A stretch of DNA of 35,657 bases, taken from contig JACVJD010000022.1 of NCBI GenBank assembly GCA_015711825.1, positions 1-35,657 of the forward strand, read 5' to 3'. The position numbers and the translations under genes are program-made. The DNA is from Candidatus Solincola daggyaiensis. GTDB taxonomy: Bacteria; Actinomycetota; Geothermincolia; Geothermincolales; RBG-13-55-18. Below, one piece after another: positions 7,408 to 35,657 of this stretch (its first letter is position 1; every line of letters starts with the position of its first letter). The notes under the pieces are model-generated. The model had not been told where the DNA came from and did no database searches. It saw only the letters and a list, made by a program, of their open reading frames with translations.

Positions 7408-9906
7408 ATGGTACAAGCCCTTGCCGGAAAAGTAAGGCCGGTGGAGATAGACGAGGAGATGCGGCGCTCCTATATAGATTACGCCATGAGCGTCATCGTC
7501 GGCAGGGCGCTCCCAGACGTCCGGGACGGGCTGAAGCCGGTGCACCGCAGGATCCTCTACGGCATGTACGAGCAGGGGCTGCTGCCCAATCGCCCCCACC
7601 GCAAGTCGGCCAGGGTGGTGGGCGACGTGATGGGGAAATATCACCCCCACGGAGACGCCGCCATCTACGAGACCCTGGTGAGGATGGCGCAGGACTTCTC
7701 CTCCCGCTACGAGCTGGTCGACGGACACGGCAACTTCGGCTCGGTGGACGGCGACAGCCCCGCGGCCATGCGCTACACCGAGGCCAGGCTCTCTCCCATA
7801 AGCCTGGAGATGCTGCGGGACATCGAGAAGGAGACGGTGGACTTCGTGCCCAATTACGACGAGTCCCTCCAGGAGCCCTCGGTGTTGCCCTCGCGCTTCC
7901 CCAACCTCCTCGCCAACGGGTCCTCGGGCATCGCCGTGGGCATGTCCACCAACATCCCTCCCCATAACCTGGGGGAGATAATCGATGCCGCCATAGCGGT
8001 GATCGAGAACCCGGAAGTGGGAACGGCCGAGCTCATGAAGATGGTAAAGGGACCGGATTTCCCTACCGGCGGCATCGTGATGGGCCTGGAGGGCCTGAAA
8101 AGCGCCTACGAGACCGGGCGCGGGGTGATAAGGGTCAGGGGCAAGGCCCACATCGAGCAGGGCAAGTCCGGCAAAGCCAGCATCGTCGTCACCGAGATCC
8201 CCTACCAGGTGAACAAGGCCAGGCTTACGGAGCGCATCGCCGAGCTGGTGCGAGAGAAGAAGCTGGCCGGGGTGTCGGACCTGCGCGACGAGAGCGACCG
8301 GGCGGGGATGCGCCTGGTGGTGGAGTTGCGCAAGGAAAGCGTGCCCCAGGTGGTGCTGAACCAGCTATATAAGCACACGCAGCTCCAGGAGTCCTTCGGC
8401 ATCATCATGATCGCCCTGGTAGACGGGGTCCCCAGGCTCATGGGCTTGCGGGAGATGCTCTCGCAATACGTGGGTCACCAGATAGAGGTGGTTACCAGGC
8501 GCACGCGCTTTGACCTGGATAAAGCGGAGAAAAGGGCGCATATCCTGGAGGGGTTGCTCGTGGCCCTCTCCCACCTGGACGAGGTGATAGCGCTTATCCG
8601 CGCCTCCCGAACCGTACAGGACGCCAAAAACGGCCTGATGAAAAAGTTCAAGCTCAGCGAGGAGCAGGCTCAGGCCATCCTGGACATGAGGCTGCAGCGG
8701 CTCACGGGGCTGGAGAGGGAGAAGGTAAAAGAGGAGCACAAAGAGCTGAAAAAGGAGATCGCGCGCCTCAAGGAGATACTGGCAGACGAGAAAAAGCTCA
8801 GGGCCATTATCGTGGAGGAGCTGGAGGCGATAAAAAAACGCTTCGCCGATCCCCGCAGAACGGACATCGTCCCCGACTACGAGGACCTGGAGGTGGAGGA
8901 CCTCATAGCGGAGGAGGAGGTGGTGGTGACCATCACCCACTCCGGGTATGTCAAAAGGCTGCCCATAAACACCTACCGCACCCAGAGGAGGGGAGGGCGC
9001 GGCGTGGTGGGGATGAACCTCAAGGAGGGCGACTTCGTGGAGCATCTCTTCGTCGCCTCCACCCATCACTACATCCACTTCTTCTCCAACCGCGGCAAGG
9101 CATACCGGCTCAAGGTGTACGAGCTGCCCGAGGGGTCGCGCGCGGCGCGGGGGCAAGCCCTGGTCAACCTGCTTCCCCTCTCGTCGGGAGAGAAGATATG
9201 CTCGGTGATCGCCACCAGGGACTATCCGGACAAGGCCTACCTGGTAATGGCGACCAAGAAGGGCATGGTGAAAAAGACGCCCTTCAAGCTCTACGACACC
9301 CCGCGCAAGGACGGCATCATCGCCATCAGCCTGGTGGACGACGACGAGGTCATAGACACCCGGCTCACGGACGGCGCCTGCGACCTGGTGATGGTGACCA
9401 GAAACGGGCAGGCCATAAGGTTCCCCGAGTCGGACTGCCGGCCCATGGGAAGGGACACGCGCGGGGTCAAGGGCATGACCCTGACGGACGACGACGAGGT
9501 CATCGCCATGGGCATAGCGGCGGAGGACGCGGACCTCTTCGTCATCACCGAGCTGGGCTACGGCAAGAGGACCGCCATCTCCAAGTACCCGAAGCACCGT
9601 AGGGGAGGGAAAGGGGTGCGCACCATCTCCTTCTCGGGGGGAAGGGGCCTGCTGGTGGGGGCCCGCGTGGTGAAGGAGAACCAGGAGCTGATGGCGGTGT
9701 CGGTGGACGGCGTGGTGATCAGGATGGAGGTGGAGGAGATCTCGAGGCTGGGGCGCGCAACCCAGGGCGTGAGGATCATGAGGCTTTCCGAAAGCGACCG
9801 CGTCGCCTCCATAGCCCAGCTCGCGTCCAGGGAGGGCCTTCCCGAAGAAGAGCAGGGGGAAGAGGGCGTGGATGCGCCATTGGGGGGCGAGCCGGAGGGG
9901 GAATAG
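7408..9906 (+). CDS. gyrA: DNA gyrase subunit A
   Basis: GyrA carries the breakage-reunion tyrosine and the DNA-wrapping C-terminal domain. The 832-residue protein has the active-site region ([12 protein letters not shown], Tyr about 123), the winged-helix region [19 protein letters not shown], and the GyrA box QRRGGRG (about 527-533) that identifies it as gyrase rather than topoisomerase IV. The C-terminal pinwheel is followed by an acidic tail. At the positions equivalent to E. coli Ser83 and Asp87 it has Ala84 and Glu88. The ribosome site GGGGAGG is four bases before ATG 7408. The stop overlaps the likely start region of the archease gene. Confidence 0.97.
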
Positions 9907-12901: not shown

Positions 12902-12978
<77 letters not shown>

Positions 12979-19168: not shown

Positions 19169-19674
19169 CAGGCAACGACGCCCGTCATACCTCGAAGGAG
19201 GCCGATGCGTGACCAAATGGGGTAAAATGCGGGCAGAACGGGGGAGCAATAACACGGGAAGGTGAGCCGGGACCGGGAACCATAAGGTCGGCGACGCCCG
19301 GGGGCTTTGCGGCGCGGCGTTGGCCGCGTCTTCGCGGTGATTTGCATGGAAAACACCGCGGAGGCGCCATCGGCCTACGAGCCGACGCCGGGCGGGCAGG
19401 GCGATGAGGCCTGCCGGGACCCGAGGCCTCGTCAGGCCCAAGGGACCTGAGGCTGAAGACGGGGGCGCAGTGGGAAGAAAGAGACTCGAGCCACTGAGAC
19501 CTCGCTGCCTACGAGCCGACGCCGGGCGGGCAGGGCGATGAGGGCCACTGGGGCCCAAGAATCCGTCAGGCCCAGGTGATGCGAAGGGTTGCGGCATGGC
19601 CGGCCCGACTCCAAGGGGCATAGCTGTCCCCGCAAGGGGGAGCTGGGCGAAGGCAAACGGAGGGAGATGCAGGA
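19169..19674. other. Gene-free stretch with a duplicated segment
   Basis: No credible gene. It holds two copies of a 37-base repeat (see separate entry) and a possible -10 (TAAAAT at 19223-19228) facing the PP-loop-like gene. The open frames on the minus strand repeat the same short peptide because of the DNA repeat. Confidence 0.5.
19373..19543 (+). repeat. Direct repeat, 37 identical bases, two copies 134 bases apart
   Basis: The segment starting GCCTACGAGCCGACGCCGGG occurs at 19373-19409 and again at 19507-19543 without mismatch. Weaker similarity continues to a shared CGTCAGGCCCA about 25 bases after each copy, so the ancestral unit was about 70 bases. In the first copy a GAGGCCT/AGGCCTC inverted repeat follows. 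No coding gene uses it. Confidence 0.85.
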
Positions 19675-33146: not shown

Positions 33147-34526
33147 TTGGAAGAAAGGGTAGTGGAGTTCGTGAACGCCCTGAGGGGCCGCGGAGTATCC
33201 GTCTCCACCGCCGAGAGCATCGACGCGCTGGGCGCCATCGCCGTAGTCGGCCTCGAGGACCCGGAGGCGTTCAAAGCGGCCTTGAAGACGGCGACGGTGA
33301 AACGACGGCGCGACGTGCACGTCTTCGAGGAGCTGTTCCCGCTCTATTTCTACGGGCTGGAGAGCGCCGGGGGCACCGACAGCCTGGAGGACGGCCTCCA
33401 GGCCCGCTTGGAGGAGGCGATGCGCGCCTTCGGGAGGGGGCGCGAGCTGAACCCCATGCTGCAGCTGGTGCTCACCGGCAGGGGAGGGGAGTGGGAGTCC
33501 TTCATCCGCATGGCGGCGGGAGAGGTAGGTACGGCCCAGCTTGCCACGCGCATGCAGGTGGGGATGTACACGCGGCGCATCTTCGATGCCTTCGATTGGG
33601 AGGAACTGGAAAGGCAGTTGGACGAGCTGCTGGAGCGCCTGCGCGATGAGGGTTGGGCGGAGGAGGAGCTGCTGCGCCTGGAGGAAGCCTTCCGGGCCAA
33701 CCGCGACGCCCTGCGCAAACAGGTGCGCCGCTACGTGGAGAGAGAGCAGGCGCGCAACGCGGAGCGGGTGCCGGGCGCGGAGCGCATGGAAAGGCTTATG
33801 GGCCGTCCCCTGTCCGGCCTGGACGAGTACGAGCTGCAGCAGATGCGCAAGGCGGTGGATATACTGGCGCGCAAGCTGCGCAACCGCATAAACCTGCGCG
33901 AGAAGCGCATGAAGCGGGGGAAGGTCGACATCAAGGCCACCCTGCGCCGCAACATGCAGCACGGAGGCGTCCCCTTCGAGCTGCGCCTCAAGCGCAAGCG
34001 CATGGAAAAGGCGGAGCTCATGGTGCTCTGCGACATCTCCTCTTCCGTCGCCAGGGTGAGTCAGTTCATGCTGCAGTTCGTGTACACCATCCAGGACTGC
34101 CTGGCCAAGGTGCGCAGCTTCGTGTTCGTGGACGACCTGGGGGAGGTGACGGAGTTTTTCCGCGACGAGGATATCCCCAAGGGGGTGCGTCGCGCCCTCA
34201 GCGAGGCGGGCATCGCCTATAACGCGCGCAGCGATTTCGGCGAGGTCTTCCGCCTCTTTTGCGAGCGCTACCTGCAGGACGTGGGCTACCGCACTTACAT
34301 CCTGGTCATCGGGGACGCCCGCAACAACTACAACGACCCCGGGCTGCGCCACCTGGAGCGCATCCGCGACCGCGCCAAGGGGATCATCTGGCTCAACCCC
34401 GAGACGCGCCCCTTCTGGGACACCGGGGACAGCGTGATGGGGGAATACCTGCCCTACTGCAGGGAAGCCCGGGTATGCCGCACCCTCAAGGATCTGGAGG
34501 ACGCCATCGGCTCGCTGTTGCTCTGA
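33147..34526 (+). CDS. CoxE-like VWA-domain protein
   Basis: A 459-residue protein. The N-terminal half is helical and charged (LEEAMRAFGRGRELN, WEELERQLDELLERLRDE), with a basic stretch near LNLREKRMKRGKVDIKATLRR-like segment before a von Willebrand A domain with the MIDAS motif DISSS at about 296-300 (LMVLCDISSSVA) and GDARNNY. CoxE-type proteins are partners of CoxD ATPases. TTG 33147 follows GGAGG (33137-33141) at five bases and gives MEERVVEFVNAL, the expected family start; the longer frame from 33084 is less likely. Part of its 3' end is duplicated after the stop. Confidence 0.88.
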   Translation: MEERVVEFVNALRGRGVSVSTAESIDALGAIAVVGLEDPEAFKAALKTATVKRRRDVHVFEELFPLYFYGLESAGGTDSLEDGLQARLEEAMRAFGRGRELNPMLQLVLTGRGGEWESFIRMAAGEVGTAQLATRMQVGMYTRRIFDAFDWEELERQLDELLERLRDEGWAEEELLRLEEAFRANRDALRKQVRRYVEREQARNAERVPGAERMERLMGRPLSGLDEYELQQMRKAVDILARKLRNRINLREKRMKRGKVDIKATLRRNMQHGGVPFELRLKRKRMEKAELMVLCDISSSVARVSQFMLQFVYTIQDCLAKVRSFVFVDDLGEVTEFFRDEDIPKGVRRALSEAGIAYNARSDFGEVFRLFCERYLQDVGYRTYILVIGDARNNYNDPGLRHLERIRDRAKGIIWLNPETRPFWDTGDSVMGEYLPYCREARVCRTLKDLEDAIGSLLL

Positions 34527-34635
34527 GGCGCGCTTGCGCCACCTGGAGCGCATCCGCGACCGCGCCAAGGGGATCATCTGGCTCAACCCCGAGACGCGCC
34601 CCTTCTGGGACACCGGGGACAGCGTGATGGGGGAA
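34345..34635 (+). repeat. Perfect 101-base direct duplication of a VWA gene segment
   Basis: Bases 34345-34445, inside the VWA gene, are identical to 34535-34635, just after its stop; the copies are offset by 190 bases and the flanking bases differ on both sides. The lack of any mismatch implies a recent event or ongoing correction, or an assembly artefact. Confidence 0.97.
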
Positions 34636-34659
34636 CGCGGGGCCTCCGTGACGGCTTGA
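34534..34659 (+). pseudogene. Truncated VWA gene fragment (41 codons)
   Basis: The duplicated segment opens with TTG 34534, preceded by GAGG at five bases, and reads in the original frame (LRHLERIRDRAKGIIWLNPE) through the copy, then adds RGASVTA and stops. It lacks the MIDAS motif and the rest of the domain, so any product would not be a functional VWA protein. I treat it as a gene fragment that may or may not be translated. Confidence 0.5.
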
Positions 34660-35249
34660 CGCCGAGGACAAAGGCGAGGGCTTGATGGGGGGCAAGAGGG
34701 AAAGCGAAGGCCGCCGGCGTTTTGCGGCAAGGAGTCGAGCCTCGCCGGCTCCTCTCCGGGAGCTTCAAGGGAGAAAGGGTTTCACCGCCGAGGTGGATCG
34801 GCGGCCGGAAAGCCACCCGCTTTCCTTCGCGTGGTCTTCGGGGAGCGCGTTGCGGCGGCAGGGGTTATAATCGGGGGAGGCGACAACGTAACCGGCGAAC
34901 GCGCGCTTCCCCCCTCGGAGATAAGGTGATTGGCGGCGGGGGTGATCGGGCCTGGCAAGCGCAACGGCGGTGGAAAGGGCATCTACAGAGGAACAGCGAC
35001 CGTAGAGCGCTCCCACCTTAAAGGCCCCGGCACCCGGCCGTCGCCAAGGCCTTCAGGCGGAGCGGCGGGCTTCATGGAGAGGGAGCATAGAACCCCGGCG
35101 CGATCGCGGTGATCGCAAGCCGCGGTTGAGCCGAACGGGTTGGAGAGGCTCTCGAGGCGCGCGGGGCCGAAACCATGGCCTTTAACCGAAAGGCCTGTCT
35201 CGTGGGTTGCAGAGGACCTATATCCTGTCAAGGTTGAACGGAGGTTGAA
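34660..35249. other. Gene-free stretch before the thioredoxin-reductase-like gene
   Basis: No protein gene is supported. A perfect TATAAT lies at 34866-34871 without a clear -35. Near 35177-35195 a hairpin GGCCTTT-AACCG-AAAGGCC precedes TGTCTCG, which lacks a T run. The segment between could encode a small RNA, but I recognise none of the standard ones (SRP RNA, tmRNA and RNase P signatures are absent). Confidence 0.4.
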
Positions 35250-35657
35250 ATGGCCGAGAAGATCTTGGACGTGGTGGTGGCGGGGGGCGGTCCGGCGGGA
35301 TTGACGGCGGGGCTGTACCTGGCTCGCGCCCGCATGGACGTGCTGCTGGTGGAGAAGCAGGCGCCGGGAGGCGCTCCCGCGCTCACCGAGAGGATCGAGA
35401 ATTACCCGGGGTTTCCCGAGGGCATATCCGGCTTCGAGCTCGTTGACCGCATGCGCCGCCAGGCGGAAAGCTTTGGCCTGCGCATAAGCTCCTTCAACCC
35501 TCTGGAGGGGCTGGAGGACGGGGGCGAGATCAAAAGGGTGCGCACCGCGGAAGAGGAGCTGTCGTGCCGCGCTGTGATCCTGGCCATGGGTATGCGGCCC
35601 GCGAAGCTGGGAGTGCCGGGGGAGGAGGAGTTCCACGGCCGCGGCGTATCCTACTGC
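35250..35657 (+). CDS. trxB: Thioredoxin-reductase-like flavoprotein, cut by window end
   Basis: The first 136 codons of an FAD/NAD(P)-binding reductase. The Rossmann motif VVVAGGGPAGLTAGLYLARA (about 8-27) is followed by LLVEKQAPGGAPALTERIENYPGFPEG, the typical TrxB FAD region, and by VILAMGMRPAKLGVPGEEEF, then GRGVSYC. The last Cys in the window is where the redox CxxC motif begins, so the active site itself is not visible. TrxB reduces thioredoxin with NADPH; a thioredoxin-reductase-like ferredoxin enzyme is possible. ATG 35250 follows GGAGG at five bases. Confidence 0.9.
   Translation, partial: MAEKILDVVVAGGGPAGLTAGLYLARARMDVLLVEKQAPGGAPALTERIENYPGFPEGISGFELVDRMRRQAESFGLRISSFNPLEGLEDGGEIKRVRTAEEELSCRAVILAMGMRPAKLGVPGEEEFHGRGVSYC

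Follow-up and report, generated by a model that had tools for sequence, protein, structure and literature searches.

The 35,657-bp stretch of DNA analysed here (the window) carries, directly behind the stop codon of a VWA_CoxE gene, an exact 101-bp copy of a segment of the gene's own tail. We interpret the pair as a real and recent short-range duplication that was illegitimate, in the sense of not being driven by homology, with the copy being tolerated and the 41-codon open frame at that position arising as a by-product. We place the probability of this reading at about 0.75. The duplication belongs to an already known kind, and its wider setting is a genus in which short local repeats are frequent.

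Both copies lie in direct orientation at an offset of 190 bp. They match at all 101 bases and the flanking base is mismatched at both ends, in agreement with the earlier note, which had described an identical, clean copy directly following the gene's stop codon. The second copy starts 8 bp past that codon. The pair is the longest exact direct repeat of the window, in which only two others of at least 18 bp were found (37 bp at 19373/19507 and 18 bp at 9336/9486). On sequence grounds, an exact match of this length at a distance of 190 bp cannot be due to chance. A search of the window's own assembly (190 contigs) with positions 34250-34720 returned this locus as the sole match. The VWA_CoxE gene is preceded by an AAA ATPase gene and followed by a trxB-like gene with matches to pyridine nucleotide-disulphide oxidoreductases. 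No tRNA or known RNA was found at the repeat site, the only tRNA in the window being tRNA-Ile at 12902. In a search for the source of the DNA behind the copy, no 15-mer of 34636-34760 recurred in the own sequence examined. Elsewhere in the window, 19373-19440 and 19507-19574 form a second, older intergenic direct duplication (68 bp, 85% identity, period 134) with a 37-bp exact core.

Table 1 Features of the VWA_CoxE repeat locus in window coordinates. G001 and G002 are relatives from the same genus.
Feature	Coordinates	Strand	Basis
VWA_CoxE gene, source of the copy	33162..34526	+	PF05762, E = 6.5e-33; span from a simple codon-usage gene finder, which leaves the exact start uncertain; conserved to the stop codon in G001 and G002
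Donor segment, 101 bp, within the VWA_CoxE gene	34345..34445	+	Exact match to 34535-34635; flanks conserved in G001 and G002
Spacer, 89 bp: conserved gene end, stop codon (34524-34526) and 8 bp	34446..34534	+	G002, 90.2% over 82 bp; G001, 85.1% over 87 bp
Second 101-bp copy, downstream of the stop codon	34535..34635	+	Exact match; one match per locus in 19/19 relatives
By-product frame of 41 codons (TTG start, TGA stop), 33 of them from the donor	34534..34659	+	Translation; no Pfam match
Remaining VWA-trxB intergenic region	34636..35249	+	Without match in the relatives' loci

Comparison with relatives identifies the older of the two copies. Among 39 genomes searched, the window's own included, 24 contained a match to the region. 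We examined the loci of 19 relatives, G001 and G002 among them, leaving out the matching genomes G021, G027, G029 and G031, and in every locus the 101-bp query found exactly one match. The segment is present as a single copy in G002 and G001, at 92.1% and 89.8% identity to our sequence, respectively. The VWA_CoxE gene aligns up to its stop codon in both (89.6-91.1%), and so do the 89 bp that separate the copies in the window (Table 1). Because both flanks of the donor segment and the gene tail are conserved in these two genomes, the in-gene site is ancestral and the second copy was added. The locus thus presents near-identical direct copies, one of them at the ancestral place, and relatives that lack the second, as is characteristic of a recent local segmental duplication. 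The copies differ at 0 of 101 positions, against 8-10% between species, which supports the very recent event proposed in the earlier note: by this sequence comparison, the duplication probably postdates the divergence of these species, barring later homogenisation of the copies. When 34636-35250 was used as the query, matches were found in own loci only and none in the relatives' loci. The relatives offer no ancestral form of the insertion site, since the intergenic region is unalignable between species. Local repeats were also seen around this gene in relatives. In G002, the beginning of this VWA gene is duplicated as an exact 83-bp copy lying 134 bp upstream (L210, 14832-14914 and 14966-15048), the VWA-trxB intergenic region of another relative has its own local repeats from ~4400 onward (L044; periods of ~102, 130 and 231 bp), and direct repeats of at least 14 bp occur in this region in 3 of the 10 distinct relatives measured (L043, L044 and L045).

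An assembly artefact would offer a different account, in which strain variants were joined or a gap was misclosed, such that the 101-bp segment was written twice. The assembly is fragmented into 190 contigs, one own contig contains a 10-N gap that implies some scaffolding or gap handling, and a strain without the gene tail could yield such a join. The contig ends speak against it. Among the own contigs compared, four pairs share an end-to-end overlap of exactly 127 bp, another contig end coincides with an internal place over 127 bp, and a further three end matches measure 126 bp, from which we infer an assembler word size of 127. Since this word exceeds the 101-bp repeat, each copy should have been bridged together with its flanks. 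The word-size argument is good but not final. Contig-end matches of 104, 92, 77 and 52 bp are also present, and one exact local repeat of the own genome, at 130 bp, lies above the inferred word. A separate objection comes from the distribution of local repeats described below, which shun coding sequence and keep the reading frame when they fall within genes, whereas assembly errors would do neither, and the same pattern is found in the separately assembled G001 and G002. Judged from the assembly rather than from reads, we consider the misassembly raised in the earlier note unlikely. Two own contigs share a long, interrupted, inverted near-identical stretch with many exact pieces of 41-132 bp (L173, 1-920, and L176, ~580-1500), perhaps representing strain variants or a repeated element.

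To place the pair in the context of its genus, we scanned for direct repeats with an exact 30-bp seed extended to at least 40 bp and lying within 400 bp of each other, and merged repeats within 1 kb into clusters. Genes were called with a simple codon-usage script rather than an established gene finder. The scan covered 1187 of 2996 kb of own sequence (101 loci, with 10 that consist wholly of N left out) and 400 kb each of G001 and G002, the latter two being non-random samples drawn mostly from contig starts, with some adjoining the VWA locus. It returned 32 own clusters, 32 in G001 and 29 in G002. Clusters with at least one mostly non-coding copy numbered 23 of 32 in our genome (8.3 expected), 29 of 32 in G001 (9.1 expected) and 19 of 29 in G002 (8.3 expected), and in none of the three did any of 2000 random placements reach the observed count. 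Pairs with two coding copies have a period divisible by 3 in 8 of 9 own cases, 3 of 3 in G001 and 9 of 10 in G002; many of these pairs, with periods of ~300 bp, may be ordinary protein repeats. Of 33 copies that overlap a gene by at least 20 bp, 29 do so at its 3' end (own 9/10, G001 17/19, G002 3/4), a count to which some clusters supply two copies. Centres of local inverted repeats were rare (own 2, G001 0, G002 0). The avoidance of coding sequence, the keeping of frame and the 3'-end bias together match the trace expected from selection on real duplications, unlike what assembly error would produce. With a gene tail placed after the stop codon of the gene it came from, the window's copy is typical of this genus pattern.

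We compared the density of recent pairs, defined by an identity of at least 95% and a distance of 60-250 bp, with that in other genomes. There are 22 such pairs in 1187 kb of own sequence; the 400-kb samples of G001 and G002 contain 22 and 18, respectively, and ten family loci contain 2 in 67 kb. The pooled controls contain 4 in 866 kb: 3 in 466 kb from 70 loci of other MAGs, 1 in 200 kb of Rhodococcus pRHL1, and none in E. coli K-12 (100 kb), Thermus pTT27 (50 kb) or S. meliloti pSymB (50 kb). E. coli enters the per-kb count only, since the gene finder misjudged its coding sequence and labelled 73.6 of 100 kb as intergenic. Measured per kb against these small controls, G001 and G002 are enriched about tenfold, our genome only about fourfold. 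Per intergenic kb, our genome, at 9.8 per 100 kb, reaches only about twice the 4.8 of the MAG controls, which surround one conserved gene and are more coding than a genome average. The own count may be lowered by the loss of repeats of at least 127 bp, at which the own assembly breaks. A partial-coverage literature search on short or local bacterial duplications and on this lineage returned no report of the pattern in these organisms. A single copy of this sort is ordinary; it is the genus-wide excess that is of interest and merits a whole-genome count.

The open frame at the copy has the outward features of a small gene. As the earlier note had stated, it runs for 41 codons in the donor's codon frame from a TTG preceded by a GAGG site. 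The GAGG (34525-34528) overlaps the TGA stop codon of the VWA_CoxE gene, the TTG (34534-34536) follows at 5 nt spacing, and the frame ends at a TGA (34657-34659). The offset of 190 bp is not divisible by 3, so the copy lies out of the VWA_CoxE gene's frame, and the TTG restores the donor codon frame. This TTG arose at the junction, from a flanking T followed by the last two bases of a CTG codon. Because 33 of the codons are simply the donor's and the TTG is a product of the junction, the mini-ORF carries no independent evidential weight. It is conceivable that the copy is functional, either as a translated 41-codon peptide or as a 3' UTR element under selection, and the well-spaced GAGG and TTG would suit such a role. 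There is also a precedent in M. tuberculosis, where PMC2734929 links the length of an intergenic tandem repeat to a gene's expression. Against this, coding DNA copied in any register that keeps its codons gives an open frame anyway, the copy is absent from every relative examined, its product lacks a Pfam match at E 0.01, and comparable copies elsewhere differ wholly in sequence. We therefore regard a function as very improbable; as judged from its sequence, the 41-codon frame is a by-product of the copying of coding DNA rather than an element of demonstrated function. In genomes of this sort, a short open frame that follows a stop codon can be a copied gene tail instead of a gene.

A diversity-generating retroelement or other template-directed pair, which the ~100-bp repeat near the 3' end of a gene with a second copy close by might recall, can be dismissed, as the own assembly has no match to reverse transcriptase PF00078 (the control search was positive in 3 of 14 genomes) and the 0 differences in 101 positions leave no adenine-directed changes. 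We also searched for repair genes that could account for the duplications. Ku (PF02735) was found in 5 of 20 genomes searched and in none of the three genus assemblies (G000, G001 and G002), which are listed as 95-98% complete such that a Ku gene could have been missed; Ku-dependent end joining was rejected as the maker on this basis. Loss of exonuclease VII was rejected as a cause, because 17 of 20 genomes, the three of the genus among them, encode its large subunit. Two MutS_V matches occur in G000 (contig C15, 19070-21021; E values of 8e-23 and 1e-17) and none in the other 19 genomes. NucS is above the cut-off in 1 of 20 genomes (G022), with a weak sub-threshold match in G001. Among the sampled genomes, the distribution of MutS_V and NucS does not track the duplications, so that these results neither favour nor dismiss loss of mismatch repair as a cause. 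None of these repair-gene results, obtained from incomplete assemblies, identifies the maker of the copies. Since the lineage seems to be without Ku, NucS and, apart from the two G000 matches, canonical MutS, it is possible that it represents a natural duplication mutator with an uncharacterised enzyme set.

The anatomy of the pairs bears on how a short-range duplication of this sort might form. Periods of the recent own pairs range from 39 to 190 bp, the window's pair being the maximum. Head-to-tail copies whose overlap or filler does not exceed 3 bp account for 7 of the 20 recent own pairs and 6 of the 23 from G001, while spacers longer than 12 bp are present in 9 of 20 and 12 of 23, respectively. 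Of the 45 recent pairs in G002, 31 are separated by more than 12 bp and 11 overlap as parts of longer arrays; none is head-to-tail within the 3-bp limit, mostly owing to multi-copy arrays. The head-to-tail pairs with such short overlap or filler indicate that sizeable homology is unnecessary, and this anatomy, together with the scarcity of inverted repeats, is in line with local duplication of an illegitimate kind. Two duplicated G001 loci have unduplicated counterparts in our genome (L239 near 16822 compared to L189, and L240 near 19594 compared to L022); one of the two is a ~111-bp duplication and the other has 42 bp extra between the copies.

The window's pair is not head-to-tail. The 89 bp between its copies are unique, conserved gene end, which sets it apart from tandem and minisatellite repeats, and a plain tandem duplication is therefore insufficient to explain it. 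In a one-step route, a strand would switch back by ~190 bp, copy ~101 bp and rejoin; in a variant of this, a break would be joined with a patch of neighbouring DNA. In a two-step route, a 190-bp tandem duplication would be followed by a deletion that trims the second gene tail. We lean slightly towards a one-step patch over duplication and trimming, although the data do not separate them. The active template switching suggested in the earlier note is compatible with the pair and with the frequency of short local duplications in the genus, which stops short of proof. By any of these routes, the copy would have survived because it is located behind an intact stop codon.

Similar events have been described experimentally. 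According to PMC6954433, E. coli topA R168C mutants acquire head-to-tail duplications independently of existing repeats, of 2-19 bp in galK, and the mechanism by which tandem repeats form de novo from non-repeating sequence is called unknown. The topA duplications and the window's pair are both direct, local and not seeded by existing repeats, but the former are short and head-to-tail whereas the window's copy measures 101 bp and has an 89-bp spacer. A mechanism shown in plants, in a 2016 study cited by the same paper, could likewise duplicate the segment between two nicks locally and in direct orientation, independently of homology; its copies too are head-to-tail, unlike the spaced pair described here. 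The copy and the sampled genus offer natural material on how tandem or local repeats arise from repeat-free sequence, the question posed in PMC6954433, and single events could be caught here with their donor and, at some loci, with an unduplicated counterpart in a sister species. More tentatively, a process in this genus may be unusually active in writing copies of ~50-150 bp of neighbouring DNA into intergenic space without homology, steadily creating repeat loci and short frames. This broader proposal is doubtful at present; if it is true, the window holds one fresh product of that copying process in hot-spring-type Actinomycetota.

MIRUs are a dispersed family in which related units lie in tandem. 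By comparison, the window's 101-bp unit is unique in its own assembly and not in tandem, and a MIRU-type dispersed repeat was rejected for the pair since the assembly holds no other place with the sequence. The genus repeats do resemble the mycobacterial MIRU-VNTR minisatellites in being mostly intergenic and actinobacterial (PMC3635867, which like PMC2734929 concerns intergenic repeats of M. tuberculosis). Separately, local repeats at several loci (L150, 4054-4330; L200, 9790-9986; L204; L205; L214) match intergenic repeats of G002 at ~70-89%, which suggests a dispersed repeat family in the genus.
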